Assembly: GCA_016839905.1 (NCBI GenBank)
Contig: JAEOTJ010000078.1
Coordinates: 1-29,755, forward strand
Direction of reading: 5' to 3'
DNA from: Promethearchaeota archaeon
GTDB taxonomy: Archaea; Asgardarchaeota; Lokiarchaeia; Sigynarchaeales; SOKP01
Length of the DNA: 29,755 nucleotides
Part shown: positions 2,463-29,755 of the stretch, piece by piece
How the letters are laid out: each line of letters begins with the position of its first letter
Numbering within the stretch: the stretch's first letter is position 1
Program-made: the position numbers and the translations under genes
The notes under the pieces: generated by a model
The model's input: the letters and a program-made list of their open reading frames with translations, nothing else
What the model was told of the DNA's origin: nothing
Database searches by the model: none

Positions 2463-2472
2463 TTTATATAAA
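2463..2472 (+). promoter_or_regulatory. Candidate TATA box for the mevalonate gene series
   Basis: TTTATATAAA is a good archaeal TATA-like decamer, about 115 bases before the HMG-CoA synthase start in the divergent gap with uppS. Background AT content is high, so chance occurrence is possible. Confidence 0.3.
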
Positions 2473-2586
2473 TGTATATTTTAGGTTTTTAATTTTAAAT
2501 AAATGAATATTAAACTAAAAAATTAATGGAATTTAATAATATTTTGATTAAGTAGGTCCCAATTAAAATTTTCATTTACTAAAAAG

Positions 2587-4224: not shown

Positions 4225-4303
4225 TTTTTTCTATTTTTCTTTTAATTTTCGTTTAAAATTATAATAATAAATTCTTATAAGATTTCAAAGACTAGTTGAA
4301 TAT

Positions 4304-5575
4304 ATGAAAGAGCTTCATTCAGACCTGTCTGGTTTTTATAAGTTATCTATAAAAGAACGTCAAAAAATATTAACAGGATTCTATGATTTCACCCCTGAAG
4401 AATTAAAAATTTTAGAAAATTTTGGTTATTTTACTAATGAAGAGATCAATACTCTCATCGAAAATGTCGTTGGGAGTTATCAATTACCAATGGGGATTGC
4501 TTGTAATTTTAAAATTAATGGGAAAGATTATTTAATTCCAATGGTAATTGAAGAGCCTTCAGTAGTAGCTGCTGCTTCTAATGCGGCTAGAATTGCCAGA
4601 AAGCATGGTGGTTTTATAACTAAAAAAGTGAAATCAATAATGATATCTCAAATTCAAATTACTCAATTAGATAACACGCTTGAAGCAATAATTAAATTAA
4701 TGGATAATAAGGAAGAAATTCTGAAAATTGCTAATGAACAAGATCCAATCTTGAATAAATTAGGCGGTGGAGCTATAGATTTTGAAATTAGGGAATTAAT
4801 TACGAAAAGAGGTAGAATGGTAATCCTCCACTTGTTAGTTGATGTGAAAGATGCGATGGGTGCTAATATTGTAAATACAATGGCGGAGGCAATTACTCCA
4901 TATATTGAAAATTTATGTGGTGGAAGAATTTATTTAAGAATCGTTTCAAATTTAGCAATGTATAGAATCGCCAAAGCAAGCGCCATTTTTGATAAGGATT
5001 TATTGGGCGGTTCTGAAATTGTTGAAGGCATAATGAATGCTTATGAATTTGCATTAGCCGACCCTTATAGAGCAACAACTCATAATAAGGGAATAATGAA
5101 TGGAATTATTGCATTAACATTAGCCACGGGAAATGATACTCGTGCAATTGAAGCAGGAGCTCATGCTTATGCTGCTTTAAGAGATATTTATTCCCCCTTA
5201 ACATCATATAATATTGATTCAAATGGAAATTTAAATGGAAATATCGAAATACCCCTATCCTTCGGGATTATTGGTGGAATGACAAAAATTCATCCAATGG
5301 CTCGTATAGCACTAAAGATTTTAAGGATTAAAAGTGCTGATGAACTTTCTCAAGTGGCCGCAGCTCTAGGTTTAGCTCAAAATGTCGCAGCTCTAAGAGC
5401 CTTAACTTCCGAAGGTATTCAAAAAGGACATATGAGACTCCACTCTCGAAATATCGCTAAATTAGCAGGAGTGCCCGATAATTTAATTGAAAAAGTTGCA
5501 GATATTATTGTAAAGGACGGGAAAGTGAGAATAGATCATGCTAAAGAAGTCTTAAAGAAAATATCAAATGACTAA
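4304..5575 (+). CDS. HMG-CoA reductase, class II type
   Basis: Reduces HMG-CoA to mevalonate, the committed step. It resembles the class II (Pseudomonas mevalonii/MvaA) form rather than the class I form common in archaea: FYKLSIKER near the N-terminus, ENVVGSYQLPMG (53-64), IEEPSVVAAAS (82-92), LGGGAIDF (153-160), DAMGANIVNTM (183-193), THNKGIMNG (259-267), ATGNDTRA (274-281) and KGHMRLHSRN (374-383). The expected catalytic set is Glu83, Lys262, Asp278 and His376. Length 423 is normal for class II. The ATG has only a weak ribosome-site-like TTGAA upstream. It follows HMG-CoA synthase after a 79-base AT-rich gap, so the two may be cotranscribed. Confidence 0.95.
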   Translation: MKELHSDLSGFYKLSIKERQKILTGFYDFTPEELKILENFGYFTNEEINTLIENVVGSYQLPMGIACNFKINGKDYLIPMVIEEPSVVAAASNAARIARKHGGFITKKVKSIMISQIQITQLDNTLEAIIKLMDNKEEILKIANEQDPILNKLGGGAIDFEIRELITKRGRMVILHLLVDVKDAMGANIVNTMAEAITPYIENLCGGRIYLRIVSNLAMYRIAKASAIFDKDLLGGSEIVEGIMNAYEFALADPYRATTHNKGIMNGIIALTLATGNDTRAIEAGAHAYAALRDIYSPLTSYNIDSNGNLNGNIEIPLSFGIIGGMTKIHPMARIALKILRIKSADELSQVAAALGLAQNVAALRALTSEGIQKGHMRLHSRNIAKLAGVPDNLIEKVADIIVKDGKVRIDHAKEVLKKISND

Positions 5576-5594
5576 AAACCTTTAGTTTTTTAAG
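5574..5594 (+). terminator. Weak hairpin / T-rich stretch after HMG-CoA reductase
   Basis: CTAAAAAC and GTTTTTTAAG can form an imperfect stem around a short CTTTA loop just at and after the HMG-CoA reductase stop. T-rich tracts terminate transcription in archaea, but the next gene continues in the same direction and base composition alone could give this. Confidence 0.2.
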
Positions 5595-5682
5595 GATTTG
5601 TTTCATTATCAAAAATTATAATAATTAAAATATATAGCGAATATTATATCCACATTTTATTAAATATTTAGATTTGGTTTTT

Positions 5683-6984
5683 ATGAAGCTTCGAGAGTAT
5701 TTAAACAAAATTGAGAATGAGGGAACTCTTAAAAAAGTAGACATGGAGGTTTCTACAAATTTAGAGATCTCTGGTATTTTAAAAGCAACTGAGCCTACGC
5801 CAGTGATTTTAAATAATGTAAAGGAATCTGAATTTCGCGTGGTTGGGAATTTATTTTGTACTAAGAATGCCATTGCTTCATATTTTGGTGTGACTCCTGC
5901 GGATTTAATTCCAATGCTTTCTAAAGCAATTGATAATCGCTCAGAACCTGAAGTAGTCTCCGATGCACCTTGTCAAGAAGTTGTTGAGTCTAATGTAGAT
6001 CTGGATAAATTGCCAATTTTATTTCATTGTGAAAAAGATGGGGGACCATATATTAGCTCTGCCGTGGTGGTTACGAGGGATCCTGAATATGGACAAAACT
6101 TAGATTTTCACCGAGCAATGAAATTTTCCAAAAACCAATTTGCAACTCGAGTTGTTAGAGGACGACATTTTCACAAATTCTTGGAAAGAAATGGTGAATT
6201 AGAAGTAGCATATTGTATTGGAAATACTCCTAATGTTCTTGTTGGAGCGGCCACTTCTGTAGATATTGGTGTTGATGAATTAAATATTGCCAATGCCCTA
6301 GAACCAATTAATCTTGTAAAAGCTAAATCAGTTGATCTATTAATCCCTGCTGATTCAGAATTTATTCTTGAAGGGCGAGTATATTTAGACCAAAAACACG
6401 CCGAAGGACCATTTGTAGATTTAACCGAAACATATGATGTAGTTAGAGAAGAACCTATTTTTGAAGTTAAAAAAATCACTCATAAAAAAGACGCAATTTG
6501 GCAAGCTCTACTACCTGGAGCACTTGAACATAAAATTTTAATGGGCATGCCAAGAGAACCTACAATCTTTAAAAAAGTAAATGAAGCGGGCGTTAAATGC
6601 TTGGATGTAAATATTAATCCCGGAGGATGTTCATGGCTTCATGCAATTGTTCAGATTGAGAAAAAATCTGAGGAAGATGGAAAAAAAGCAATTGAAGGAG
6701 CTTTTGCAGGACATAGAAGTTGTAAGCATGTCTATATCGTTGATAAAGATATTAATATTTATGACCCCTTATTTGTCGAATGGGCAATGGCAACACGCTT
6801 TCAAGGTGATAATAGAATGGTTATTAAAGATAAAGAACCTGGAAGTAGTTTAGATCCTAGCGCGGAACCAGGAACTAAATTGACGACTAAAATAGGGTTT
6901 GACTTAACAGCCCCACTAGTGGTTAAAGGGAAAAGTTTTGCCATAGCAGAGTTTCCAAAAGTAGATTTAAATAAATATTTTTAA
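5683..6984 (+). CDS. UbiD-family decarboxylase, likely anhydromevalonate phosphate decarboxylase
   Basis: Proposed to decarboxylate trans-anhydromevalonate 5-phosphate to isopentenyl phosphate with prenylated FMN, as described for Aeropyrum pernix. UbiD-family features: an N-terminal mixed domain (1-100), SAVVVTRDP (126-134), DFHRAMKF (141-148), a central flavin-binding barrel with CIGNTPNVLVGAA (178-190), FILEGRV (227-233), and the hallmark EGPFVDLTE (241-249), which carries a conserved acid. Length 433 is typical. Start chosen at ATG 5683 because MKLREYL matches usual UbiD N-termini; a TTG three codons earlier is less likely. The specific substrate is inferred from context: it sits directly before both dehydratase subunits, and a UbiX gene making its cofactor closes the cluster. 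A different UbiD role (such as ubiquinone-type decarboxylation) is unlikely here. Confidence 0.9.
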   Translation: MKLREYLNKIENEGTLKKVDMEVSTNLEISGILKATEPTPVILNNVKESEFRVVGNLFCTKNAIASYFGVTPADLIPMLSKAIDNRSEPEVVSDAPCQEVVESNVDLDKLPILFHCEKDGGPYISSAVVVTRDPEYGQNLDFHRAMKFSKNQFATRVVRGRHFHKFLERNGELEVAYCIGNTPNVLVGAATSVDIGVDELNIANALEPINLVKAKSVDLLIPADSEFILEGRVYLDQKHAEGPFVDLTETYDVVREEPIFEVKKITHKKDAIWQALLPGALEHKILMGMPREPTIFKKVNEAGVKCLDVNINPGGCSWLHAIVQIEKKSEEDGKKAIEGAFAGHRSCKHVYIVDKDINIYDPLFVEWAMATRFQGDNRMVIKDKEPGSSLDPSAEPGTKLTTKIGFDLTAPLVVKGKSFAIAEFPKVDLNKYF

Positions 6985-7001
6985 AAAAAGAGTTGGTATT
7001 A

Positions 7002-8195
7002 ATGAAATTAACATCTAAAGAACAAGAAATGCTTGATGGTAAGCATGGGAAAGCGGTCCAGAAATCAATGGAGATCTTAAATACTTTAGGAGAAATATTC
7101 GAGGCAGAACGGATGATCCCCGTATATAGTGTTCAAATAGCCGGAGTATCTTATGCAAATCTTGGAGAGGCGGGCCTTGAATTTCTATCTGAGATGGCAA
7201 TAGATGGGAAGGTTAGAGTTTTAACAACTTTAAATCCTGCAGGTATGGATCGTGAAAACTGGCAAGCTTTAGGTATAGAGGAAGTATTCGCAAAGAACCA
7301 GAATCGTGCCATAGATGCCTTTGCTAAAATGGGAATCATTACAACTTGTTCATGTACTCCTTATTTATATGGTAATGCGCCTCATTTTGGACAACACTTA
7401 GCTTGGGCAGAAAGTAGTGCAGTTTGTTATTCTAACTCCGTTATTGGGGCCCGTACTAATCGTGAAGGAGGTCCTAGCGCCTTGGCTGCAGCCTTAACAG
7501 GAGTGACACCTGAATATGGATATCATTTGAGTCAGAATCGCCAAGGAGAAGTATTGGTAAATGTTAATGCTCCAATAAGTGGAACTGATCAATTTGGCGT
7601 ATTAGGCAAGATTATTGGTGATAAATTAGTTGAATTGAAGAAAAAAATACCTTATATTACAGGAATAACTTCTGCGACTGTAGAAGAATTAAAATCCTTT
7701 TGTGCATCCGTTGCCACTTATGGAGGTACTGCACTTTTCCACATGGAAGACATCACTCCTGAGGCTATCATGTATCCCAAACCTGTTGAATTAACGTTTA
7801 ATATCGATCAAGAAATGCTTAATAAAACTCGCGCGGAATTGATTGATGATGATATTGAAATTGATTTTGTCAGCGTTGGATGTCCTCATGCTTCCATATA
7901 TGAATTAGCTCAAGTTGCTAATTTACTTAAAGATAAAAAAGTAAAGAAAGAATTTTGGATTACTACTGCGCGACCTACTAAAAGACTTGCGGATGATGTA
8001 GGTTATACAAAAACCATTGAAGAAGCTGGAGCGAAGTTTGCAGCGGATACTTGTTGTGTTGTTGCTCCTATTAAAGGGAGGTTTAAGGGAATAATGGTCG
8101 ACTCTGCTAAGGCATGTTATTATGGTAGGGCTAAGAATAAATTTAAAGTGAAAATTGGAAACGTAGAAGAATGTGTATTGGAGGCATTAAAATGA
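7002..8195 (+). CDS. Phosphomevalonate dehydratase large subunit (aconitase X catalytic domain)
   Basis: Dehydrates 5-phosphomevalonate to trans-anhydromevalonate 5-phosphate with an iron-sulfur cluster. It matches the aconitase X (AcnX) large-subunit family: MLDGKHG near the start (10-16), TCSCTPY (115-121), GNAPHFGQHLAWAESS (124-139), SVIGARTNREGGPSAL (146-161), GCPHAS (293-298) and DTCCVVAP (349-356). Cys116 or 118, Cys294 and Cys351 or 352 are candidate cluster ligands. Length 397 is normal. Start taken at ATG 7002 rather than TTG 6993, with GAGTTGG as a possible ribosome site. Only 17 bases separate it from the decarboxylase gene and its stop overlaps the small-subunit start (ATGA), a strong sign of a coupled two-subunit enzyme. 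Confidence 0.92.
   Translation: MKLTSKEQEMLDGKHGKAVQKSMEILNTLGEIFEAERMIPVYSVQIAGVSYANLGEAGLEFLSEMAIDGKVRVLTTLNPAGMDRENWQALGIEEVFAKNQNRAIDAFAKMGIITTCSCTPYLYGNAPHFGQHLAWAESSAVCYSNSVIGARTNREGGPSALAAALTGVTPEYGYHLSQNRQGEVLVNVNAPISGTDQFGVLGKIIGDKLVELKKKIPYITGITSATVEELKSFCASVATYGGTALFHMEDITPEAIMYPKPVELTFNIDQEMLNKTRAELIDDDIEIDFVSVGCPHASIYELAQVANLLKDKKVKKEFWITTARPTKRLADDVGYTKTIEEAGAKFAADTCCVVAPIKGRFKGIMVDSAKACYYGRAKNKFKVKIGNVEECVLEALK
8180..8184 (+). promoter_or_regulatory. Ribosome binding site of the dehydratase small subunit
   Basis: GGAGG seven bases before ATG 8192. It decides the start: the frame also has an ATG at 8171, but that lies before the site. Confidence 0.75.
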
Positions 8196-8581
8196 AGTTA
8201 GAGGGAAGAAAAATCTATAAAGGAACTGCTGAAGCCGAAGCAATCGTCACCAATGACGGGATTTCTTTTTATGGTGGAGTGGATCCAGATTCGGGCAAGG
8301 TTGTTGAAGTCGGGCATGAACTAGAGGGACAATCAATAACTAATAAGGTATTAGTCTTTCCAAGTGGTAAAGGGTCGACAGTAGGTTCTTATACAATGTA
8401 TAGGATGATGAAAAATAATACTGCTCCAGCAGCAATTGTTAATGAACAAATCGATACGATCATAGCTGTAGGTTGTATAATTAGTGAAATTCCTTGCGTA
8501 GATAAAATTGATATTAGTAAAATTGAAACAGGACAAAAATTATTTGTCAATGGTTCAGAGGGAACAGTGGAGGTGAAATAA
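8192..8581 (+). CDS. Phosphomevalonate dehydratase small subunit (aconitase X swivel domain, DUF126)
   Basis: The swivelling small subunit that closes over the active site of the aconitase X-type phosphomevalonate dehydratase. Its 129 residues match the DUF126 family: a beta-rich start with GTAEAEAIV, a central GGVDPDSG, the VFPSGKGSTVGSY motif (residues 51-63 approximately), APAAIVN and AVGCIISEIPCVD. The Ser in PSGKGS is the conserved substrate-phosphate/active-site contact of the family. Start is ATG 8192, four bases overlapping the large-subunit stop, with GGAGG upstream. Its last codons (GTG GAG GTG AAA TAA) also form the ribosome site of the mevalonate kinase gene, so translation of the three genes is likely coupled. 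Confidence 0.92.
   Translation: MKLEGRKIYKGTAEAEAIVTNDGISFYGGVDPDSGKVVEVGHELEGQSITNKVLVFPSGKGSTVGSYTMYRMMKNNTAPAAIVNEQIDTIIAVGCIISEIPCVDKIDISKIETGQKLFVNGSEGTVEVK
8569..8575 (+). promoter_or_regulatory. Ribosome binding site of mevalonate kinase (GGAGGTG, spacing 6)
   Basis: GGAGGTG followed by six bases and ATG 8582. It shows that in this genome GGTG is used as the ribosome-binding element rather than as a GTG start, which is relevant to the unusual starts listed in the findings. Confidence 0.75.
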
Positions 8582-9517
8582 ATGGGAACTGGGTATGGAT
8601 ATGGTAAAACAATCCTCTTTGGAGAACATTTTGTTGTTTATGGTCTTGCCGCTATCGCTTCAGCACTCGGTTCTAAGACAATTGCTACAGTTAAAACTGC
8701 TGAGGGAAATGGTTGGACGGTAAATGATGAAAGACCAGCCACGCCAGGTTATAAGAAGAAAAAATTTAATGAAGCTCAACAGTCAATTCAAAATGTTTTA
8801 GATTATTTAAAAATTGATACTGAAACTCAAAAGCTAGAAATTACATTTGCTGGGGACTTAACGGCAGCCAGTGGGGTTGGAGCTTCTGCAGCTCAATGTA
8901 CATCCCTCGCTCGATCTTTAAATGATGAATTTAAACTAAACTTGGATGATGAAAAAATAAATGAAGCAGCTTATGAGGGTGAAAAAGCATATCATGGAAC
9001 ACCATCTGGCATTGATAATACAGCTTCTACTTATGGTGGATTAATTTGGTTTGTAAAAAATTTAAAGGGCGGGAATAACACTATAGATCGAGTTCAGGCA
9101 GGCAAAAAAATGGCGCTAGTCATAGCTAACACGGGTATTACAGCATCTACGACCGAAGTTGTGGCTGATGTTCGTAAGCAAAAAGAAGAAAATCCTGAAG
9201 AATTCGATAAAATCTTTAAAGAATTTGAATCTCTTGCTGATGTTGCAAAAAAAGCCCTGATGGAAGGGGATATTGAAAAAGTCGGAGATTTAATGAATAA
9301 AAATCATAAATTACTACAAGATATTACTGTTTCAGGAGAATTAAATGATAAATTAGTTGATATTGCATTAAAAAATGGGGCTATTGGAGCTAAAATGACA
9401 GGTACTGGTCGGGGAGGATTGATAATTGCTTTAACTTCTGATGAGGATAAGCAAGAAAAAGTAACTGAAGCAATTGAAAAAGAAGGTTATACAGCGTGGA
9501 AAACTACTATAGGATAA
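8582..9517 (+). CDS. mvk: Mevalonate kinase (GHMP family)
   Basis: Phosphorylates mevalonate to 5-phosphomevalonate with ATP. GHMP-kinase features: N-terminal GKTILFGEHFVVYG (8-21), the ATP-binding loop SGVGASAAQ (97-105), E134, HGTPSGIDN (138-146) with Asp145 as the expected catalytic acid/base, and the C-terminal GTGRGGLIIAL loop. The typical mevalonate kinase loops read GLGSSAA and GAGGGG, so both are mildly variant (Ala for Ser101, Arg in the last loop). Length 311 is normal for archaea. It follows the dehydratase stop with no gap. A mevalonate 3-kinase function (Thermoplasma type) is not supported by context, since the dehydratase needs a 5-phosphate substrate. Confidence 0.9.
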   Translation: MGTGYGYGKTILFGEHFVVYGLAAIASALGSKTIATVKTAEGNGWTVNDERPATPGYKKKKFNEAQQSIQNVLDYLKIDTETQKLEITFAGDLTAASGVGASAAQCTSLARSLNDEFKLNLDDEKINEAAYEGEKAYHGTPSGIDNTASTYGGLIWFVKNLKGGNNTIDRVQAGKKMALVIANTGITASTTEVVADVRKQKEENPEEFDKIFKEFESLADVAKKALMEGDIEKVGDLMNKNHKLLQDITVSGELNDKLVDIALKNGAIGAKMTGTGRGGLIIALTSDEDKQEKVTEAIEKEGYTAWKTTIG

Positions 9518-9549
9518 AATTATATTTTTTATTTTCTATTTTAAAAATT

Positions 9550-9555
9550 AAGGAG
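9550..9555 (+). promoter_or_regulatory. Ribosome binding site of the IPK-IDI2 fusion gene
   Basis: AAGGAG seven bases before GTG 9563. It supports GTG as the true start there. Confidence 0.6.
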
Positions 9556-9562
9556 TAAAGAA

Positions 9563-11458
9563 GTGAAAAATAATAATATTGTTTATCTATTAAAGCTTGG
9601 TGGGAGTCTTTTAACAGATAAGAATAAACCATTTTCACTTCGAGAAGATATTATTGAGAACTCCATTAATCAAATCATTAAAAGTAAAGAAAAACTCATT
9701 ATTATTCATGGTGGAGGTTCATTTGGACATCCTGTTGCCAAGAAATATAATATTTCAAAAGGATTAGATCCCTCAATTGAAAATCAAATTCTTGGTGTTG
9801 CAGAAACACATGAATCAATGAATAAATTCAATACTTATATCATAAACAAGTTCCTTGAAAAATCTTGTCCAGCCATTTCAATCCAAAGTTCAAGCATTTT
9901 TTTAAAGAAATCTCGAGAAATTTTAACTCAATCAATTGAAACTATCGAGACTGCTCTTGATCTTGGAATAATTCCAGTATTATATGGTGATATTCTCCTT
10001 GAAAAGCAAGGTTCTTTCTCAATCATTTCTGGAGATCAAATTATTTTAGAATTATGCAATCACTTGGAAAAATATCAAGTTTTTAAAGTAATTTTTGCTA
10101 TTGAAGAAGATGGAATATATATTAAAGAAAATGAAAAAAATAAAAAATTGGCTTTAAATATTAAATGTAATGAATTGGATGATCTCCCTCTAGCTAATTT
10201 AGGACAAAAGATTGATGTTACGGGAGGTATTAGGGGAAAAATCAATTCAATTAAAGAAATTTGTAAATTAAGAATTCCTGTTCAAATTATTAATGGAATT
10301 AAGGAAAATTATATTTTTAAATCCTTAAAAAATCAAGATTTAGAATGTACATATATAAAATCAATATCTGATGAGGATGGTTTTAAGGAAATTTATGATA
10401 GGAAGATTGAACACCTTACAATTCCTTTAGATTATGATGTACGACATTTAAAAAACTATTTTAAATACATTAATTTAATACATCACGCACTTCCTGAAAT
10501 AGATCTTGAAGAGATCGATTTATCCGTCGATTTTTTTAATAAAAAAATCTCTGCCCCTATTTGTATTTCTGCAATTACTGGAGGGCATCCTGTTGCTAAA
10601 AAATTAAATGAGATTCTTGCTAAAGCGGCAGAAGAAGAAAACATCATAATGAGTGTTGGAAGCCAACGTGCTGGATTAACAAACCCTTCAGCTCAAGAAT
10701 CTTTTAGCATTGTTAGAGAAGTTGCCCCAAATATCCCAATAATTGGAAATATTGGCATTGGCCAAGTCTGTGATCCCAATTTCAATATACAAGACTTTCA
10801 TAAATGTGTCAAGATGATAAAGGCAGATGTAATGGCAATTCACATTAATTCATTACATGAATTGGTCCAAGATGGAGGAGATGTGTCTTATAAATTATTT
10901 CGTCAGAATTTTCAAAAAATTCGAGAATCGTCTAATGTCCCAATAATTGCTAAAGAAGTGGGCTCAGGTTTTAATAAAGAAGTCGCCTTAACCCTTGATA
11001 AGCTTGGTTTTGATGGTTTTGATGCAGGTGGTGCGGGAGGAACAAGTTTTGCTGCAATTGAGGCTTATCGAAATAAAAATCTAAATATTAAATACACTAG
11101 GAATCCTGGAACTACCTTTAGAGAATGGGGGATTCCTACTCTAGTAAGTGTAGCTAATATTAGAAGCCAGAGTAAAAAATCAATTATTGCGACAGGTGGC
11201 TTAAAAACGGGAATAGACATTGCTAAAAGCTTAATATTAGGTGCTAATGTTGGTGGTTTTGCTTTTAAATTTTTAAAAACTGCAATGGAAGATTACAAAA
11301 CTGGAATCCACACTAATACAATCAAAGAAATAAAAACTCTAAAAAATGAATTGCGTTCAAGCATGTGGTTATTAAATTTAAAAAATATTGAAGAGTTAAA
11401 AAATTCTAAGGATAAAATTGTAATTTATGGAAAATTATCTAAATGGCTAGAAATTTAA
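9563..11458 (+). CDS. Fusion: isopentenyl phosphate kinase - type 2 IPP isomerase
   Basis: One 631-residue protein carries the last two pathway steps. Residues ~5-265 are an amino-acid-kinase-fold isopentenyl phosphate kinase (isopentenyl phosphate to IPP): KLGGSLLTDK (11-20), HGGGSFGH (49-56, with the signature His56) and DVTGGIRGK. Residues ~275-631 are FMN-dependent type 2 isomerase (IPP to DMAPP): DRKIEHL, HHALPEIDLEEIDLS, ISAITGGHP, GSQRAGL, KEVGSGF and GGAGGTSF. There is no stop or shift between them. The loop that normally reads HxNxxQE is HINSLHE (427-433): His432 replaces the catalytic Gln, while Glu433 (metal ligand) is kept. The Phe in GGTSF is also seen in Bacillus-type enzymes. 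GTG start with AAGGAG before it. Last gene of the series, ending convergently on the UbiX gene with a 4-base overlap. Confidence 0.93.
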   Translation: MKNNNIVYLLKLGGSLLTDKNKPFSLREDIIENSINQIIKSKEKLIIIHGGGSFGHPVAKKYNISKGLDPSIENQILGVAETHESMNKFNTYIINKFLEKSCPAISIQSSSIFLKKSREILTQSIETIETALDLGIIPVLYGDILLEKQGSFSIISGDQIILELCNHLEKYQVFKVIFAIEEDGIYIKENEKNKKLALNIKCNELDDLPLANLGQKIDVTGGIRGKINSIKEICKLRIPVQIINGIKENYIFKSLKNQDLECTYIKSISDEDGFKEIYDRKIEHLTIPLDYDVRHLKNYFKYINLIHHALPEIDLEEIDLSVDFFNKKISAPICISAITGGHPVAKKLNEILAKAAEEENIIMSVGSQRAGLTNPSAQESFSIVREVAPNIPIIGNIGIGQVCDPNFNIQDFHKCVKMIKADVMAIHINSLHELVQDGGDVSYKLFRQNFQKIRESSNVPIIAKEVGSGFNKEVALTLDKLGFDGFDAGGAGGTSFAAIEAYRNKNLNIKYTRNPGTTFREWGIPTLVSVANIRSQSKKSIIATGGLKTGIDIAKSLILGANVGGFAFKFLKTAMEDYKTGIHTNTIKEIKTLKNELRSSMWLLNLKNIEELKNSKDKIVIYGKLSKWLEI

Positions 11459-12006
11459 TCATTTCCCCATCTTTTTATATCTGTTTCAATGCTAATTTGA
11501 TCCAAAATCCGCCCAACTAAGTATTTTATTAAATCATCAACACTTTTAGGTTTTATATAGAAAGAAGGTATGGGGGGGGCGATTATAACGCCTAATCTTG
11601 CTAACTTGAGCATGTTTTCAAGATGAATCGCGCTGAATGGACTTTCTCTCACGATTAAAACGAGTCTTCTATTTTCCTTAATCATTACATCTGCAGCTCT
11701 GGTTATTAGATTATCCGCAAATCCATGAGCTATAGCTGCTAAAGTTTTCATTGAACAAGGTATTATTATCATACTTTCTATAATAAAGGAACCACTCGCA
11801 GGTGCGGCTGCAAGATCCTTAGAATCATAAACTTCCGAAGCTAAATCAGTTATTTCAGTAATTTTATAATTACTTTCGAGCTCTATAACTTTCTTAGCAT
11901 TTTCCGAGATGATTAATTCTCGATTAAAATCATTTTCTTTTAAAACTTCTAGAATCCTCACTGCAATATCCACACCTGTTGCTCCAGTTATCGCAATTAA
12001 CACCAA
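11455..12006 (-). CDS. ubiX: UbiX-type flavin prenyltransferase
   Basis: Attaches a dimethylallyl group to FMN to make prenylated FMN, the cofactor of UbiD enzymes. Family features: ITGATGVDIA at the N-terminus (6-15), ASGSF, MIIIPCSMKTLAAIAHG, DNLITRAADVMIKE, RRLVLIVRESPFSAIHLENM and PPIPSFY. Length 183 is normal. The first codon is TTG; the next codon, GTG, would give the typical MLIAITGA start and is equally possible. It is the last gene of a minus-strand series and meets the isomerase fusion end-to-end. Its place here supports assigning the nearby UbiD protein to the mevalonate route. The dimethylallyl donor is itself a product of this pathway. Confidence 0.93.
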   Translation of the reverse strand: MVLIAITGATGVDIAVRILEVLKENDFNRELIISENAKKVIELESNYKITEITDLASEVYDSKDLAAAPASGSFIIESMIIIPCSMKTLAAIAHGFADNLITRAADVMIKENRRLVLIVRESPFSAIHLENMLKLARLGVIIAPPIPSFYIKPKSVDDLIKYLVGRILDQISIETDIKRWGND

Positions 12007-16323: not shown

Positions 16324-17391
16324 TTAGAATTTTCTTTCTGCGACAAATTTTAATAAATTTTCAAAGAACTCGTATTCGGATGGATTAATATTAGCCTTTA
16401 ATTCTTCAAGTGAGCTCTGTGCTTCTTCAAAATATTTTTTTGCCAAGTTTCTACAATTTTCTATAGCGTTAGCTTCTTTAAAAAGCCCTCTAACATCATC
16501 AACATCCTTTTCTGCCATTTCTGGATTTTCAATCAATTCAATAAGGCGATTTTTCTTTTCTAAACTTAAGTTACTAAGTGCTGTAATTAATAAACAAGTT
16601 TTCTTTCCTTCCCGGATATCTCCATCAGTAGGTTTTCCCAAGATTTTCTCATCACCAAAAGTTCCTAAGATGTCATCAATTATCTGGAAAATTATTCCTA
16701 AATTCATTCCATAAGTAGCAAGTAATTTTCTGTTTTTTTCATCAACTTTTGCATAATTAGCTCCTATTAAAATGGATTTTTGAATTAAGGCTCCCGTTTT
16801 TAATGATATCATATTAATGTATTCTTCAATCGTTAAGTCTGTTTGATTCACCATATCAACTTCAATCAATACCCCATCTGAAATCTCGATATATGCATTT
16901 TGGTAATATTCTATGGCTCGTAAATTTAATTCTTTCTCAAATTCATTAAAAAAATAAGCTTCAAGTCCCATAAAGAAGGCGGAATCTCCTCCAATTATAC
17001 CAATATTAGTTCCAAAATCCTCAGCAACCATTTTTTTTAAGTCATATTTCTCATGATATTGCCTGAACCTATAATGGAAAGCAGGTTTTCCCCTCCTAAA
17101 ATCATCTTTATCTATTATATCATCATGAACCAATGACGCATTATGTAAGAATTCCGTGCCAACAGAAGCCATAAAAATCTTATCATCGCCCCCATTCGTG
17201 AAGGCGTTATAAGTGGCGATACAAAGTAACGGTCGAATTCTTTTTCCTCCAGATAAGAAATAATCTTTTAATTCTGAATAGTAATCCTTAAGAAAACTAT
17301 TATCTACAGCATTTAATTTCCTATCATAGATCTTTTTAATAGCTTCATTAATTTTAGGAATAAATTTCGCGGCATATAGTTTAAAATCCAT
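16324..17391 (-). CDS. trans-prenyl diphosphate synthase (GGPP synthase-like)
   Basis: Adds IPP units to DMAPP in trans to make the C20 or longer chain of archaeal lipids. The two Asp motifs are clear: DDIID (90-94) and DDILG (in QIIDDILGTFG). GGKRIRP (48-54) binds IPP and KTGALIQ is present. Length 355 is normal. The fifth residue before the first Asp motif is Ala85 (HNASLVHDD), where archaeal C20 synthases usually have a bulky aromatic; a small residue there allows longer chains, so the product may exceed C20. GAGAGGT seven bases before the ATG is a good ribosome site. The reductase gene ends 12 bases upstream, so the two are one operon. Confidence 0.92.
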   Translation of the reverse strand: MDFKLYAAKFIPKINEAIKKIYDRKLNAVDNSFLKDYYSELKDYFLSGGKRIRPLLCIATYNAFTNGGDDKIFMASVGTEFLHNASLVHDDIIDKDDFRRGKPAFHYRFRQYHEKYDLKKMVAEDFGTNIGIIGGDSAFFMGLEAYFFNEFEKELNLRAIEYYQNAYIEISDGVLIEVDMVNQTDLTIEEYINMISLKTGALIQKSILIGANYAKVDEKNRKLLATYGMNLGIIFQIIDDILGTFGDEKILGKPTDGDIREGKKTCLLITALSNLSLEKKNRLIELIENPEMAEKDVDDVRGLFKEANAIENCRNLAKKYFEEAQSSLEELKANINPSEYEFFENLLKFVAERKF

Positions 17392-23192: not shown

Positions 23193-24065
23193 TTATTTTT
23201 CATCGCAGTCTTCAGATTTTTGAAGATTTAATTTTATGAAACCTGCTTCTTGTACATTTCTCTGGTCGGATTTAATCGATCTATGAACTTGTGCTAAATA
23301 TTTTATTGCTTCTCTTTTTCCATCGAGAATGTTATTGAATAATTCTTTCTTGTTATCTCCCCCCGATAAGGTCAAAGCTGTTTGAAAGGATTGTTCTGGT
23401 TCTAATGTTTTAAATTCAATCTGTTGAGCTGATAAGATTTCTCCTGAACCTTCGTATAATGTATTTGATAAATTAAATCTCTCTTTTCCTATTTTAAAAT
23501 CTCGGACTAAATTCGTTTCATGATGAGTTGATTTAGAAATTGTTGAAAATCCCGCATGCAATCCGCTTTTATCATATTGATAAATAATATCATTTTCTAC
23601 ATCATAACCAGATAAATCATTGTTAAATCCCTCAAGACCATTTAAGTCAAGGTCAAATATGAAAATCATTGAAAAATCAATTAGATCTAGGTCAGAATTA
23701 TTTTTTAAAGTAAAGTATGTATTTATATAATGTGCTTTTCCTCTACGTAAAAAATTATCAATATAAACTCGGATTTTATATTTCCCATTTCTAAATTTAA
23801 ACTTTTTTAATACATGCTCTTGAATATTTTTTTTTAAATATTCTCTAATATCAAAATCCAATGTTATTCTCTGAATATTAATTCCCTTTCGGCTATTAAC
23901 GAGCTGATATATCGGAGTTGGTTCAACATTTTTTAATACAACAGGTATTGTTTTAATATCTTTTCCTTTCAATTTAAAGCTAAACCAAGGCCCAGCTAAC
24001 TCTGGTTCTGTAAGATATAATAAGTACTTTCCTTTATACGTGATTTCTTTAATTGAAAATCCCAT
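23193..24065 (-). CDS. Unrecognised beta-rich soluble protein
   Basis: 290 residues, soluble, with no signal peptide or membrane segment. It has beta-strand patterning throughout, with YLLYLTEPELAGPWFSF near the start, INTYFTLKNNSDLDLIDFSMIFIFDLDLNG in the centre and a helical, charged C-terminus. No motif that I recognise. It could be a carbohydrate- or ligand-binding beta-sandwich. It follows the GTPase-Roadblock pair on the same strand with a 120-base gap and may be transcribed with it. ATG start without clear ribosome site. Confidence 0.7.
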   Translation of the reverse strand: MGFSIKEITYKGKYLLYLTEPELAGPWFSFKLKGKDIKTIPVVLKNVEPTPIYQLVNSRKGINIQRITLDFDIREYLKKNIQEHVLKKFKFRNGKYKIRVYIDNFLRRGKAHYINTYFTLKNNSDLDLIDFSMIFIFDLDLNGLEGFNNDLSGYDVENDIIYQYDKSGLHAGFSTISKSTHHETNLVRDFKIGKERFNLSNTLYEGSGEILSAQQIEFKTLEPEQSFQTALTLSGGDNKKELFNNILDGKREAIKYLAQVHRSIKSDQRNVQEAGFIKLNLQKSEDCDEK

Positions 24066-24185: not shown

Positions 24186-25901
24186 CTAAAGTGTTTCTAA
24201 AAACTTGTAAGCAATATATAAAAATGCATCATTAACATTCTCTCCTGTCTTGGCAGAAGTAAGAATGTAATGAAATCCAAATTCCTGTGCTAATTTTTTA
24301 ATTTCTAATTCACTTACAAGCAAATTCTCTAAATCGGATTTATTTCCGACAATAACTATTGGAATTTCGACTTGTACGGATTTTTTTATATCATTATACC
24401 ACAATTTTATATCTTCAAATGTCTTAGGGCGAGATCTATCCAAAACTATAAATGCTGCAAGAGCACCATTATAAAATCGTGCTCTATATGGTGCCATTTG
24501 TGTCATTTGGCCTCCAATATCCCATAATATAAAATCTATAGTCGTTTCATCATTGATTTTAAGAATCTTTTGAGAGAGTTCTACTCCTATTGTAGATTGA
24601 TAACTCTCTTTAAATCTGTTTTCGACAAATCTTTTTATTAAAGAGGACTTTCCTACTTTAAAATCCCCAGTTATAATCAGCTTCGTAGTAAATTTCCCGG
24701 CAGGGATTTTTCCACTTTTAGTTTTAGATAATACTTTTATTATCTCAGGAATCTCAAGAGACACATTTTCTTCTCTATCTAATAATAATTCAATTTTTCC
24801 AGCAACATGCTCTGAATAAACTCTCAATTCGATATCTGAGGTCGATGGATCTGCTACTGTTGTTAAGATGGATTTTGCCCCTAGTGAGCAAAATGCGAAT
24901 TTTTTATCTGCTGTTGATGTTATGACAAAAAAATTACTCTTAGTTCCAAATTCGCGTTTTATTCTCTCCATAGAACCATCCATTATCGCTGAGATTGCTC
25001 CCATTACCATTTCATCTTCAATCCCTCCTCTGATTTCGGAGGCCAATATTAATCCTTCTCGGTCAGATATGGATATCCCATCTACACCTGGAACTTCATT
25101 AATAAAGTTTCTCAATAATGTTTTAAGTCGATTTTCTATTAGGGATAGATCTAATTTAGCAGGTTTCTGAATTTGTTTTACATCTGATGCTTGAAAATAT
25201 TTTAATACACCTAACTCTTTTAAATTTTTTTTTAATTCTTGTTCATTCTTTAAAATATCATCTAAAAAGGATTCATCTCCAATTTCTTGGCAAAGTTTTT
25301 TAAGTTGATCAAAAATTTGTTCTGCCTTATCAAAATCTTGAGATTTTAAAATAGAGATTAATTCATCTTTTAATTCTTCTTTTTTAGATAAAGAATCTAA
25401 TAAGGATTTAATTTCAAAACCTTTACCTAAAATATCTGCTATTATTTTTACCATATTATCTTTATTATCTGGATTTATAGCACTCATAGGAAAAGTTATT
25501 AAGCCTAAGCTTTCTTCTATTTCTGCAGGTTCCATTGCCCCCTCTAAGTCTTGTTTATTACCAATTATGGCAGTTCGGGCAATTGGAACTTCTTCTTTTA
25601 TTAATTTCACAAGTTCTTTACTACTATTAATGTTTCTCTCAGTAGAATCTGTTATTAAAAGAATTGCATCACTTCCTTTGATAAAACTCTGCCAGATGAA
25701 ACTAATTTGCTCTTCTCCGGTATAATCCCATATATAAAAATTTTCATTTCCGATTTTTAATGTTGCAATATCACCTGTTATTTCTGGAAAATGCTGAATG
25801 GGAATTTCCTCTGATCTAATTAATTCCGTGATTGTTGTTTTTCCAACACCATTCTCTCCTATTAAACATACTTTTGGTCTTAAATCTTGAATTTTTTGGA
25901 T
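24186..25901 (-). CDS. GTPase - Roadblock - Rab-like GTPase fusion protein (shorter paralogue)
   Basis: About 571 residues. N-terminal small GTPase (~5-165): GENGVGKT (15-22), WDYTGEE, NKQD (115-118), followed by a helical linker, then a Roadblock/LC7-like domain (~267-382; ISISDREGLILASE, FCSLGAKSILTTV), then a complete Rab-like GTPase (~402-571): GDFKVGKSS, WDIGGQ, NKSD, TSAKTG. No C-terminal lipidation Cys. Roadblock domains scaffold or regulate GTPases (MglB, Ragulator), so this looks like a regulator built together with its GTPases; inference. A start from GTG 25610 would lose the G1 loop. The frame is open to 25904, but a TAA (25905-25907) follows the only GTG (25908-25910), so ATC 25899-25901 is chosen. 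It follows the longer paralogue by 39 bases. Confidence 0.85.
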   Translation of the reverse strand: MQKIQDLRPKVCLIGENGVGKTTITELIRSEEIPIQHFPEITGDIATLKIGNENFYIWDYTGEEQISFIWQSFIKGSDAILLITDSTERNINSSKELVKLIKEEVPIARTAIIGNKQDLEGAMEPAEIEESLGLITFPMSAINPDNKDNMVKIIADILGKGFEIKSLLDSLSKKEELKDELISILKSQDFDKAEQIFDQLKKLCQEIGDESFLDDILKNEQELKKNLKELGVLKYFQASDVKQIQKPAKLDLSLIENRLKTLLRNFINEVPGVDGISISDREGLILASEIRGGIEDEMVMGAISAIMDGSMERIKREFGTKSNFFVITSTADKKFAFCSLGAKSILTTVADPSTSDIELRVYSEHVAGKIELLLDREENVSLEIPEIIKVLSKTKSGKIPAGKFTTKLIITGDFKVGKSSLIKRFVENRFKESYQSTIGVELSQKILKINDETTIDFILWDIGGQMTQMAPYRARFYNGALAAFIVLDRSRPKTFEDIKLWYNDIKKSVQVEIPIVIVGNKSDLENLLVSELEIKKLAQEFGFHYILTSAKTGENVNDAFLYIAYKFLETL

Positions 25902-25907
25902 TTTTTA

Positions 25908-25914
25908 CACCTTT
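25908..25914 (-). promoter_or_regulatory. Ribosome binding site of the shorter GTPase paralogue
   Basis: AAAGGTG, then six bases, then ATC. The in-frame TAA directly after this GTG rules it out as the start of the open frame. Confidence 0.5.
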
Positions 25915-25940
25915 AGATAAATTAAAAATATATAAATAAA

Positions 25941-27911
25941 TTAAAGAGTTTCTAAAAACTTATAAGCAATATATAAAAATGCATCATTAACATTCTCTCC
26001 TGTTTTAGCGGAAGTAAGAATGTAATGAAATCCAAACTCCTGCGCCAATTTTTTAATCTCTAATTCACTTACAAGCATATTTTCTAAATCTGATTTATTT
26101 CCGACTATAACTATTAGAATATCGCCCTGAACGGATTTTTTTATATCATTATACCACATTTTTACATCTTCAAATGTTTTAGGGCGAGATCTATCCAAAA
26201 CTATAAATGCCGCATGAGCACCATTATAAAATCGTGATCTATATGGTGTCATTTGCGTTATTTGACCTCCAATATCCCAAACAATGAAATCAAAAGTCGT
26301 TTCATCACTGATTTCAATAATTTTTTGAGAAAGTTCTACACCTACAGTAGCTTGATAATCTTCTTCAAAAGTATTGTCGATAAAACGTTTTATTAAAGAC
26401 GTCTTTCCTACATGATAGTCACCAGTTATTATTAATTTGGTTGAATAGTTCCCGGCAGGAATTTTTCCACTTTTGGTTTTAGATAATACTCTAACTATTT
26501 CAGGAATCTCAAGAGATATTCTTTCTTTTTCATTTAATAATAATTCAACCTTTCCCGCAATATGTTCTGAATAAACTCTTAATTCAATATCCGTGGTAGT
26601 TAATTCTGCAACTGTTGTTAAAATGGATTTAGGCCCTTGTGAACAATACACGTATTTTTTATCCTCGGATGTTATAATATTACAAAATTTACTTTTCATA
26701 CCAGATTCCTTAATAATTCTATCCATGTATCCTTCCTTTTTTTCATCAATTTCATAGTCTACTCTTTGGTATCCACGAATGGCAAAATTCTTATCTACAA
26801 ATACTTGAAAATGATGCTCACAGATTAATTCTTTTGGAATTGAAAGTGTTGTTACTCGAGATGATTCCTCAATAATGGATTTCGGAATAGGCATCCTCTT
26901 TTTTCCATGGCAAATTGGACATATTATATTTAAATACTTTTTTTCTGCTTGATCACTGAGTCCAGTGGTTTCCAGCGTTTTTGCAGTACTCGTACTAATT
27001 CCTAATTCAGAAATGTCTTCAACTTTACTCTCAAAAGTAATAATATTTCCACCTCGATCACTAACACTCACCGCTATTATGCTCTCAATGTCATTAATAT
27101 AATTTTTTAATAGTGTTTTCATATCATTTTCGATCGAAGGTGGTTTCTGAGGCAAAATTTGTTGAGATCCAATCGTTCCTGCTGGAGTTGGTGCTTTTTG
27201 GGCACGTTCTTCTTTTTCTAATATTTCTTTTAATATTTTCCCTCTTTCCTTATATTCATTACCAATAAAATTATCACCAAGTTGATAGCATAGATCTGTG
27301 ATCTTGTCATAATATTGAATTGCTTTTTTAAAATCTTCTACTTTTAATGCTTCTTCTAACTCAATTATTGAGGTCTCTCTCTCATTCAATGCTTTTAATA
27401 TAGAAGTGACTTCATCACTAATATTCAAGAGCTTTGCGATTATTTCAACGATTTTCTTTTGACTTTTTGGATTTAAGGCATTTATTGGATATGATTTACA
27501 ACCCAAGTATTCTTCTATTTCTGAAGATTTTACTGCACCTTCTAAATCTTGTTTATTACATAGAACTGCAATGCGGTCTGGTGAAATTTGTTGTTTTATT
27601 AATTCTAAAAGCTCTTTACTCTCATCTATATTACCTAAAGTAGAATCTGTAATTAATAATACAGCATCACTTCCTTTAAGAAAATCTTGCCATATAAAAC
27701 TGAATTGCTCTTGCTCCGTATAATCCCATATATAAAATTCTTTTTTTCCAATTTTTAAAGTTAAAATATCTCCTGTAATTTCGGGAACGTGTTGAACATG
27801 ATTTTCTTCTGATTTAAGTAATTCAATGATCGCTGTTCTTCCAACTCCAATATTTCCTATTAAACATATTTTCGGTCTCAAATCTTGAATCTTTTTTATT
27901 CTTACCCGCAC
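25941..27911 (-). CDS. GTPase - Roadblock (zinc insert) - Rab-like GTPase fusion protein (longer paralogue)
   Basis: 656 residues. An N-terminal GTPase-like domain (~12-165) has GNIGVGRT (19-26) with Arg25 replacing the invariant Lys, and DYTE with Glu66 replacing the G3 Gly, though NKQD (119-122) is kept. This domain is likely impaired. A helical linker (~170-240), then a Roadblock-like domain (~262-465) interrupted at ~325-390 by a zinc element CPICH...CEHH (Cys331, Cys334, Cys364, His366/367) and a VDKNF...GYQRVD segment. The C-terminal Rab-like GTPase (~485-656) is complete: GKTS (503-506), Thr522, DIGGQ (546-550), NKSD (605-608), SAK (634-636). No lipidation Cys. The last 43 residues are identical to those of the shorter paralogue. 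The first codon is GTG within AAAAGGTG, and the paralogue aligns from the following ATA, so the start is uncertain. Confidence 0.87.
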   Translation of the reverse strand: MRVRIKKIQDLRPKICLIGNIGVGRTAIIELLKSEENHVQHVPEITGDILTLKIGKKEFYIWDYTEQEQFSFIWQDFLKGSDAVLLITDSTLGNIDESKELLELIKQQISPDRIAVLCNKQDLEGAVKSSEIEEYLGCKSYPINALNPKSQKKIVEIIAKLLNISDEVTSILKALNERETSIIELEEALKVEDFKKAIQYYDKITDLCYQLGDNFIGNEYKERGKILKEILEKEERAQKAPTPAGTIGSQQILPQKPPSIENDMKTLLKNYINDIESIIAVSVSDRGGNIITFESKVEDISELGISTSTAKTLETTGLSDQAEKKYLNIICPICHGKKRMPIPKSIIEESSRVTTLSIPKELICEHHFQVFVDKNFAIRGYQRVDYEIDEKKEGYMDRIIKESGMKSKFCNIITSEDKKYVYCSQGPKSILTTVAELTTTDIELRVYSEHIAGKVELLLNEKERISLEIPEIVRVLSKTKSGKIPAGNYSTKLIITGDYHVGKTSLIKRFIDNTFEEDYQATVGVELSQKIIEISDETTFDFIVWDIGGQITQMTPYRSRFYNGAHAAFIVLDRSRPKTFEDVKMWYNDIKKSVQGDILIVIVGNKSDLENMLVSELEIKKLAQEFGFHYILTSAKTGENVNDAFLYIAYKFLETL

Positions 27912-28383
27912 CTTTTAATATTTTTCAGCAGAATTATTATTAAGCATTCCTTTTTTAATGATTAATCATGAATATATTTTTTGTATAATATTATTCTACA
28001 ATTTCTATTAGTTCTTAAATTTAATAAAACATTTCATATAATTTAATTTTTTTATGATCATTTGATTAATGCCTAAATCTTGTGTATATATAAATGATTT
28101 TTTCTTATCCATCTAATAATTTTACGTACTTCCCTCCAAGCTGTAATTCCATACGATTAACAATGCGATCGAGTACTTTTCTAATCTAATGACAATTAAA
28201 AACCTTATTTTAGGATGTGATATCTAGGTGATCCGAAGGAAAAGGAATAAAAGCTTGTGTAATTAAATATGTGGGTATTATCGTATAATGTAATTTTAAA
28301 TCATTTAGGAAAGTAAAGATATATATAATCATATTGAATCCTTTTATTTATAAGGAATAAGAGAAATGAAGGTACATTAAATA
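27912..28383. other. Intergenic region before the surface protein (472 bases)
   Basis: AT-rich gap between divergent genes. It holds a perfect 12-base palindrome at 27958-27969 and a possible ribosome site (GAAGGT) at 28369-28374. I see no RNA gene, no ORF and no clear terminator. Confidence 0.5.
27958..27969. promoter_or_regulatory. Perfect 12-base palindrome upstream of the GTPase operon
   Basis: ATGATTAATCAT reads the same on both strands, about 47 bases upstream of the longer GTPase gene. It may be an operator; chance is possible in AT-rich DNA. Confidence 0.3.
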
Positions 28384-29755
28384 ATGATAACAAATTATAA
28401 AGTTTTAAGAAAGAAAAAAAAAAAAATCAAATCTATTAGAATAATAATCTTCATGATTATACTCCCAATCTTCTTTAACTCCCTTTTTTTTACAATTTTA
28501 ACCAAAAATTCAAATCAAGATAATAGAGAAAAAGATCTAAAAGAGGATATTAAATTATATTATTCGGCATCTCATCCACCAAATGCGATTTATTTTAAGT
28601 ATTATAAATTTATCACGATTGATAATTCAAAAGTTTCCGGTTCTGGAAACCATGAAAACTTTCCTGTTCTCATTTCTATTCTTGATTCGGATTTATATGA
28701 CAATGTTCAATCAAATGGCAATGATATTGCCTTTTACAATGGTAGCATTTGGCTAGATCACGAGATAGAATATTTTAATATAAATTATAACGATACTCAC
28801 GCAAAATTGGTAGCTTGGGTTCGTATTCCAAGTTTATCGACATCTATTGATACAATCATTCGGATGTATTATGGAAACTCCACCATGGGTTCGCAGCAAA
28901 ATCCCGAAGGGGTGTGGAATTCGAATTATATGGGAGTCTGGCATTTATCCGAGGATCCTACAGGGATTATTTATGATTCCACTTCCAATGATAATGATGG
29001 GACTGCTCAAGGTACTTGGACCTCTGGTGATCAAGTCCCGGGACAAATTGATGGGAGTTTAGATTTTGATGGGAACGCCCAGTCTGATTTAATCAACCTC
29101 GGAACTGGTAGTAGTTTAGCAATCACGGGAGAACTCACTATTCAAATATGGGCAAAACCAAATGTCCTTAATGCTTACATGGGTATTGGTGGAAAATCAG
29201 GATCTACTGCAGGTAATTATTACGGTTATGCTCTTTCCAAATTGGCTAATAATTATTTTAGATTACAAGTCTGCGATAATGTTTTTTATTCTATTGAAAG
29301 TGACTCTGCATATGCTGATACTGATTGGCATCATATCGTAGGTGTTCGACGTGGTGGAACTATTTATCTCTATATTGATGGTATCCAACAAGAAGCGACA
29401 ATAGTACAAACTTTAGCCGCAGATCCAGATATAGCTTATATTGGAAGACAATATAATGATTTTGCTGATAGACATTGGAATGGGAATATAGATGAATTTA
29501 GAATTTCAAGCACGGGAAGAACTGCTGGTTGGATTAAAACAGATTATAATAATCAAAATGAGCCTGATGAATTTTATTCTGTTAGCGTTGCGTTCCAAGT
29601 AATACCTCCAAAGCCAGAAGACTTTCAGTATCATAAAGTTATTACGATTGATCCTTCAAAAGTCGCGGGTACTGGGAGTCATGAAGATTTTCCAGTTCTT
29701 ATTTCTTTATTTGATGAGGATTTACATGATAATACTCAACCAGATGGAGATGATA
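28384..29755 (+). CDS. Partial surface protein: DUF2341 and LamG-like domains
   Basis: A 457-codon open frame runs off the right edge, so the C-terminus is missing. A Lys-rich start and a membrane segment (~18-40) suggest an exported, anchored protein. Then comes a DUF2341-like domain (~75-180; FITIDNSKVSG, ENFPVLISI, IPSLSTSIDTIIRMYYG), a LamG/concanavalin-like lectin domain (~190-385; LEDPTGIIYDSTSNDNDG, GELTIQIWAKP, TDWHHIVGVRRGG, GNIDEFRIS) and the start of a second DUF2341 copy (~418 on; VITIDPSKVAG, EDFPVLISL). The DUF2341-lectin repeat is common in archaeal surface proteins. Start ATG 28384 has AAGGT ten bases before it. Adhesive role inferred. Confidence 0.85.
   Translation, partial: MITNYKVLRKKKKKIKSIRIIIFMIILPIFFNSLFFTILTKNSNQDNREKDLKEDIKLYYSASHPPNAIYFKYYKFITIDNSKVSGSGNHENFPVLISILDSDLYDNVQSNGNDIAFYNGSIWLDHEIEYFNINYNDTHAKLVAWVRIPSLSTSIDTIIRMYYGNSTMGSQQNPEGVWNSNYMGVWHLSEDPTGIIYDSTSNDNDGTAQGTWTSGDQVPGQIDGSLDFDGNAQSDLINLGTGSSLAITGELTIQIWAKPNVLNAYMGIGGKSGSTAGNYYGYALSKLANNYFRLQVCDNVFYSIESDSAYADTDWHHIVGVRRGGTIYLYIDGIQQEATIVQTLAADPDIAYIGRQYNDFADRHWNGNIDEFRISSTGRTAGWIKTDYNNQNEPDEFYSVSVAFQVIPPKPEDFQYHKVITIDPSKVAGTGSHEDFPVLISLFDEDLHDNTQPDGDD

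Follow-up and report, generated by a model that had tools for sequence, protein, structure and literature searches.

Lokiarchaeal fusion proteins carrying a roadblock domain between an Arf-like GTPase with lost switch residues and an intact Rab-like GTPase

Lokiarchaeal proteins that link a small GTPase to a roadblock or a longin domain within a single chain have already been published, so the principle itself is not new: PMC4917890 describes roadblock-GTPase and longin-Arf fusions, and Tran et al. 2024 (PMC10933270) describe GTPase-roadblock and longin-GTPase-roadblock proteins in Lokiarchaeon MKD1. According to the latter paper, an operon pair in MKD1 was modelled as a roadblock-linked heterodimer, and the gene layout makes it difficult to match GTPases to their GTPase-activating proteins (GAPs) or guanine nucleotide exchange factors (GEFs). 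Here we analyse a 29,755-nucleotide stretch of a Promethearchaeota archaeon genome (contig JAEOTJ010000078.1, assembly GCA_016839905.1; hereafter the window), in which two adjacent genes, gene 1 and gene 2, each encode one chain made up of an Arf-like GTPase, a helical linker, a roadblock and a Rab-like GTPase (Table 1). As in the MKD1 proteins, a small GTPase is joined to a roadblock or longin domain in one Lokiarchaeal chain. The portions of PMC10933270 available as text mention neither a chain in which two GTPases flank a roadblock nor a roadblock split by a zinc insert, nor any residue loss in a front GTPase, though the architectures of its Fig. 1f could show this order; the literature listings, as far as they extend, contain no description of the two-GTPase fusion. 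Relative to that literature text, the new elements would be the two-GTPase chain with its residue-poor front, the zinc-split roadblock and the link to a neighbouring gene, F2.

Like Rag/Gtr proteins, which work with Ragulator/EGO, the fusions carry a GTPase followed by a roadblock in one chain and occur here as a paralogue pair. Unlike in Rag/Gtr, the front GTPase is nearest to Arf, a second, Rab-type GTPase comes after it, and in the close relatives of the fusion the roadblock accompanies the rear GTPase and not the front one. In the MglA-MglB system of Myxococcus a Ras-type GTPase likewise works with roadblock dimers, but there the parts are separate proteins and the GTPase is single. The eukaryotic mitochondrial GTPase Miro is one chain in which two unequal GTPases flank a regulatory middle made of EF hands, and it ends in a C-terminal membrane anchor. 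The fusion shares the unequal GTPases around a regulatory middle but has a roadblock in place of the EF hands, and the anchor is Miro's; no EF-hand family figured in the Pfam listings, which gave 20 matches for gene 1 and the best 25 of 39 for gene 2. The closest relatives are free-standing Lokiarchaeal versions of either half. Roadblock-Rab proteins of about 330 residues are homologous to the rear half end to end and lack the Arf-like front half; longin-like-Arf proteins, relatives of the Arf family and mostly 600-780 codons long, are homologous to the front half and have neither a roadblock nor a second GTPase.

Gene 1 and gene 2 lie head to tail with about 40 bp between them. An earlier note on this DNA had proposed that each consists of two GTPases with a roadblock between them, and Pfam, AlphaFold2 models and a roadblock profile bear this out for both chains: the three kinds of domain, Arf-like GTPase, roadblock and Rab-like GTPase, do share a single chain. 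Pfam found two GTPase stretches per chain, the front one of Arf type (residues 10-143 of gene 2) and the rear one of Ras/Rab type (residues 408-567 of gene 2). The listed extent of gene 2, 24186-25610 (474 aa), reflects the absence of any ATG, GTG or TTG beyond that point, yet its frame is open up to 25904, and the 98 codons left off encode the start of a complete first GTPase. This missing start had escaped the earlier note, as had the degenerate P-loop and DxxG motifs and the zinc insert of gene 1. The listed GTG of gene 1 at 27911 sits within a ribosome-binding-like AAAGGTG; its true start therefore probably lies about four codons further on. The front domain begins about a dozen residues or fewer after the likely protein start.

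Fold searches with both whole-chain models returned rows covering the rear domain only, the Rab domain having filled the lists, and the roadblock and the front domain were therefore tested by sequence profiles. On gene 2 the Robl_LC7 profile scored 21.1 bits for the whole chain (cut-off 23) and 24.5 bits for the isolated region. No Robl_LC7 match was listed for gene 1 in the Pfam scan, the domain being split there; at E<=0.1 the profile matched 29 of 31 members of the family roadblock alignment. The best solved relative was 7f8m, a Robl_LC7 protein (E 1.6e-4). The roadblock fold expected in the middle of the chain is present in the gene 2 model, where residues 253-375 follow the order a-b-b-a-b-b-b-a with a mean pLDDT of 81.6.

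The same domain order recurs across the phylum. A domain scan that covered the fetched loci and the relatives listed for either window gene gave at least 127 fusion entries, of which 93, counting the two window genes, are non-redundant by their front domain. A survey of 227 genomes, many of them fragmented and each represented by five scored candidates, so that its counts are lower bounds, found the fusion in at least 6; in five of these a longin-like part is in frame. Recurring in 93 non-redundant proteins and, in the genome survey, in six genomes, the order is no annotation artefact. Sixty-nine genomes matched at E<=1e-100, and at least 65 carry a roadblock-Rab gene without the front half (one, G128, only as contig-edge pieces). 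A longin-like domain precedes the front GTPase in 92 of the 127 entries and is lacking from both window genes. The name "longin-like" rests on a pattern and on the published longin-Arf fusions; the longin identity of this extension is unconfirmed, the searches having returned only weak, unrelated matches (PDB E 0.27, Pfam E 0.086). A contig scan with gene 1 alone gave no matches; with alignment A1 it yielded 79 loci. Those relatives of gene 1 and F2 that carry a name come mostly from Promethearchaeota/Lokiarchaeota assemblies, with a few Thor-, Hermod-, Hod-, Heimdall- and Helarchaeota labels.

The two GTPases of the fusion differ sharply in their motifs. We scored nine binding and switch positions in non-redundant rows with all nine columns filled, which excluded 6 of 50 front-domain rows in a first set and 9 of 93 in a larger one; the rows share ancestry, and the counts are thus not independent events. 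In the larger set the front domain was intact in 2 of 84 fusions (P0034 and P0278), against 50 of 50 free-standing longin-like-Arf proteins, while the rear domain was intact in 89 of 91 fusions and in all 68 free-standing roadblock-Rab proteins. The first, smaller count had given 1 of 44 and 50 of 50 for the front, and 46 of 47 and 55 of 55 for the rear. The view that both GTPases are switches is thus not supported: the front domain has lost switch residues, which the rear domain retains. In front, the P-loop Lys is kept in 83 of 84 fusions, gene 1 being the sole exception; most often lost are the catalytic Gln, kept in 22, and the switch-I Thr, identified as Mg-coordinating by alignment to Arf and kept in 15. 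The front domain of gene 1 has a Gln at the catalytic position. Among the same 44 fusion proteins, mean pairwise identity was 0.52 for the front domain versus 0.65 for the rear. This pattern suggests that the front domain likely keeps its nucleotide without cycling, and that of gene 1 perhaps binds none.

Of the "Rag/Arf-like" label that the earlier note had given the front GTPase, the Arf part stands: PF00025 is its best Pfam profile, and its best PDB matches are Arf chains (up to 72.6 bits), with no Rag chain among the best 60 of 432 matches. The Rag-like look would be secondary. PF04670 (Gtr1_RagA) does score 29.9 bits on gene 2 (cut-off 22; 19.7 bits on gene 1), with its best stretch in the rear GTPase, after which no roadblock follows. 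The rear domain has the Ras/Rab fold and motifs. Neither chain has the C-terminal prenylation cysteines of eukaryotic Rabs; both end in KFLETL. A role of the roadblock as dedicated regulator of the front GTPase is not supported, given the genomes in which the roadblock-Rab unit stands alone.

In gene 1 the roadblock is split by an insert of about 65 residues with the pattern CPxC...CxH, ending in RGYQxVDYE; its cysteines and histidine suggest that it binds zinc. The insert is present in 11 of the 127 fusion entries, and in eleven zinc-split relatives of gene 1, at 40-51% identity, the C, C, C, H pattern is invariant. The module itself is widespread: CPxC...CxH...RGYQ was matched at E<=1e-6 in 88 of the 227 genomes, with up to 16 matches in one genome. 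It was readable in 29 of the 30 best-scoring loci, in all 29 within the first 55 residues of the frame, and was followed by a GTPase in three. The insert is thus a movable Lokiarchaeal module that is not specific to the fusion family. We considered whether it marks a general zinc-roadblock family, which is ruled out since the roadblock profile matched none of the 29 zinc-module proteins, and whether it marks a separate old lineage; a single zinc clade was rejected in the rear-half tree (p-AU 0.0013), and codon data suggest partial gene conversion.

Both halves of the fusion exist alone, and the domain trees are congruent, so that a single fusion event would be the simplest reading. In the front tree, a branch with SH-aLRT 99 separates the 14 sampled free-standing rows from the 55 fusion rows. 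The rear tree retained 111 of 116 rows (the second copy of gene 1 and four rows contained in or containing another, or too short, were removed) and was midpoint-rooted because the distant group at loci L064-L074, described below, fell below the roadblock cut and is absent from it; one clade of all fusions together with three rows lacking the front half fits these data (p-AU 0.53). The three rows nested among the fusions (the second copy of L006, L016 and L017) look like fusions whose front half has been lost or, in L016, which lies at the edge of a contig, cut off. Gene 1 and gene 2 group together in both trees (SH-aLRT 99 rear, 91 front) and are close paralogues, in agreement with the earlier note, which called them paralogues. 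Between them, third-position identity falls from 61% in the front GTPase to 46% in the linker, rises to 75% in the rear GTPase and reaches 93% in codons 560-589.

We found that F2, which follows gene 2 in the window, is a conserved neighbour of the roadblock-Rab unit. Across loci L001-L063 it lies on the same strand within 400 bp after 50 of 56 roadblock-Rab genes without the front half; of the six others, L044 is at a contig end, L054 is the first of a tandem pair, three are the rows nested among the fusions, and L057 is a plain exception. Of 390 F2 proteins, the 119 listed besides the window copy share 63-75% identity with it, and those of two divergent loci 38-40%. No Pfam family matched the window copy, matches among 35 members were scattered and weak, and neither NCBIfam nor PDB (none below E 0.36) offered a relative. 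The small GTPases of Asgard archaea number dozens, and their partners are not known; the gene layout here yields one concrete partner candidate.

On the other side of the fusion, a giant gene is divergent to it in all five regions read (L100, L101, L102, L104 and L105), the contig of the sixth genome being too short. The copies in L100, L101, L102 and L104, of 2095-2675 codons, contain two hydrophobic segments, the second of which is followed by about 450 conserved residues; that of L105 runs off the fetched region just past the second segment, and the window copy (F1) is truncated much earlier. LamG and DUF2341 were clear in L104 and the window copy and weak in L100, the only copies scanned, and the tails from L100 and L101 had no Pfam match.

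Building on the observed architecture, motif loss, paralogy and conserved neighbourhood, we favour, with slightly more belief than doubt, the following explanation as a whole. A Lokiarchaeal family would have arisen by joining a longin-like-Arf GTPase to a roadblock-Rab GTPase, with gene 1 and gene 2 as close members. Judged by their families, the rear Rab-like domain would be a working GTP switch and the roadblock a dimerisation and regulatory platform attached to it. The front Arf-like domain most likely serves as a nucleotide-locked scaffold, as the residues that hold the nucleotide are mostly kept and the switch-I Thr and usually the Gln are gone; that of gene 1 is probably a true pseudo-GTPase. 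The roadblocks would probably pair gene 1 with gene 2, a heterodimer made plausible by their being sister genes so close together, in an asymmetric dimer whose gene 1 half is marked by the zinc ribbon, and this dimer most likely acts at the cell membrane together with F2 and the product of the giant surface-protein gene next to the fusion gene. An Arf-type GTPase has then apparently been made a fixed part beside a live Rab-type switch, a step like that separating active from structural GTPases in eukaryotic complexes. Our confidence is lowered because the pairing of gene 1 with gene 2 in the trees has caveats and F2 directly follows few fusion genes.

Several points indeed weigh against this explanation. 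A second Thr, two residues beyond the switch-I position, is retained in genes 1 and 2, and residue loss does not prove loss of switching, since some GTPases use other residues or a partner acting in trans. F2 and the surface protein are linked to the GTPases by position only, and outside the window F2 comes directly after one of five fusion genes (L009). The pTM values of the two chain models, 0.51 and 0.42, leave domain packing unfixed. The protein sets of fusions and relatives are limited to the best 120 listed for each query (gene 1 and gene 2) and the fetched loci, and the trees are quick ones without bootstrap. Long branches in the front tree meet exactly at genes 1 and 2, and the codon identities suggest gene conversion in the rear half, which therefore weakens the rear tree as evidence of a recent duplication. 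Finally, a second fusion gene was seen in none of the six fusion genomes among the five candidates scored in each.

The alternative that comes closest, though we hold it only tentatively and clearly behind the preferred explanation, is a Rag-like heterodimer in which the roadblocks bring gene 1 and gene 2 together in the manner of Gtr1-Gtr2 and opposite nucleotide states of the two chains carry the signal. The adjacency of the paralogues, their unequal front domains and, in the text of PMC10933270, the roadblock-linked Rag-like operon pair modelled in MKD1 speak for it, as do three pairs of different fusion paralogues on contigs of equal size (P0019/P0044, P0020/P0046 and P0241/P0042; the shared lengths are 19907, 29443 and 60036), which suggest co-location elsewhere, equal size being no proof of the same contig. 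It sits poorly with a front domain nearest to Arf rather than Rag, with a roadblock-Rab unit able to stand alone, and with the lack of second fusions just mentioned: five of the six fusion genomes have one fusion and one close roadblock-Rab gene, and G006 has a fusion and two, and the partner elsewhere may therefore be a roadblock-Rab protein. A further reading, which we regard as rather doubtful, is a module for signalling or anchoring from surface to cytoplasm: a giant LamG surface protein would cross the membrane once, and its conserved cytoplasmic tail of about 450 residues would be read by the GTPase-roadblock-GTPase pair, with the locked Arf-like domain as anchor, the Rab-like domain as switch and F2 as effector or regulator.

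We consider it unlikely that the chain is a self-contained double switch, with both GTPases cycling and the roadblock between them serving one or both as GAP or GEF. The completeness of the two GTPase folds, the nearly universal front P-loop Lys and the full motif sets of two fusions speak for it; yet the front switch-I Thr is missing from 69 and the Gln from 62 of the 84 fusions, residues that every free-standing relative keeps, and gene 1 has lost the P-loop Lys and the DxxG Gly besides. Still less probable is that gene 1 is a decaying or recent copy without a distinct role, only its rear half being kept intact by gene conversion. Its degenerate front domain, the climb of third-position identity from the linker to the rear GTPase and the rejection of a single zinc clade for the rear half would fit; against this, gene 1 is an open frame of 656 codons, and its eleven zinc-split relatives conserve the C, C, C, H pattern without exception. 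An annotation or assembly artefact, to which the lack of an ordinary gene 2 start codon before 25610 might point, is refuted by the recurrence of the same order in so many entries and genomes, and we give it practically no weight.

The start codons form a pattern of their own. In longin-like-Arf genes the aligned start is a near-cognate codon (AUU/AUA/AUC) in 23 of the 24 readable cases; the observation covers L130-L149, L095-L099, L018, L028, L040 and L082, and window positions 25899-25914 and 27897-27915. Nineteen of the 20 fetched longin-like-Arf loci L130-L149 were readable, with ATT in 13, ATC in 3, ATA in 3 and ATG in none, each start being preceded by GGTGA (17) or GGTTGA (2) and by an in-frame stop two codons (once three) earlier. 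L095-L098 share this pattern and L099 has ATG; four fusion genes start with ATT. An in-frame GTG lies three codons upstream in L148 and 4-6 codons downstream in L140, L141, L146, L147 and L095, and the remaining 17 of the 23 near-cognate genes have no ATG, GTG or TTG before codon 12. As a control, the aligned start of F2 is ATG in 49 of 54 genes and a Phe codon in 5. Longin-like-Arf-type proteins with such starts come out truncated in gene lists, and the literature listings, to the extent available, contain no description of the pattern.

Table 1. Positions of the gene pair, its domains and its neighbours in the window
Feature	Position	Strand	Details
Gene 1: degenerate Arf-like GTPase, helical linker, zinc-split roadblock, Rab-like GTPase	25941..27911	-	656 aa from GTG; likely start ATA 27899
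Gene 1 ribosome-binding-like site	27909..27915	-	AAAGGTG; sequence
Gene 1 front Arf-like GTPase	27417..27878	-	P-loop GNIGVGRT (Lys lost); WDYTEQE (DxxG Gly lost); switch-I Thr to Glu
Gene 1 three-helix linker	27192..27419	-	AlphaFold2 helices 165-190, 194-211, 214-239
Gene 1 roadblock, including zinc insert	26535..27140	-	Alignment and AlphaFold2 model
Gene 1 zinc-ribbon-like insert	26739..26939	-	CPxC...CxH...RGYQ; between roadblock strand 2 and helix 2; alignment
Gene 1 rear Rab-like GTPase	25944..26450	-	All nine motif positions canonical
Gene 2: Arf-like GTPase, helical linker, roadblock, Rab-like GTPase	24186..25904	-	572 codons open; likely start ATC 25901
Gene 2 ribosome-binding-like site	25908..25914	-	AAAGGTG, then in-frame TAA, then AAA ATC; sequence
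Gene 2 front Arf-like GTPase	25431..25877	-	P-loop GENGVGKT intact; switch-I Thr to Glu; catalytic Gln to Glu
Gene 2 three-helix linker	25215..25421	-	AlphaFold2 model
Gene 2 roadblock	24780..25148	-	AlphaFold2 model, PDB profile match, Robl_LC7
Gene 2 rear Rab-like GTPase	24189..24698	-	Canonical
F2, conserved partner-gene candidate	23193..24065	-	290 aa; no known family
F1, start of LamG/DUF2341 surface protein	28384..29754	+	N-terminal hydrophobic segment; divergent from gene 1; cut by window end

Another type of gene came up among the fetched loci. In 9 of the 11 loci L064-L074 (L064, L066-L069 and L071-L074) two adjacent genes of about 520-538 codons each combine a Rab-like GTPase with a region that matches roadblock weakly and with some 190 additional residues; L065 has a single gene of that type and L070 one of 338 codons. 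These gene pairs are possibly of the operon-pair type described for MKD1.

Elsewhere in the window, positions 1603-12006 and 16324-17391 hold an isoprenoid cluster that encodes a polyprenyl synthase, HMG-CoA synthase and reductase, UbiD-type and UbiX-type proteins, a mevalonate kinase and a geranylgeranyl synthase, in keeping with the archaeal mevalonate route. Two further proteins of the cluster match the cis-3-hydroxy-L-proline dehydratase model, and we take them to be of the aconitase-X type. At 9563-11458 an isopentenyl phosphate kinase and a type 2 isopentenyl diphosphate isomerase are fused into one 631-residue chain.

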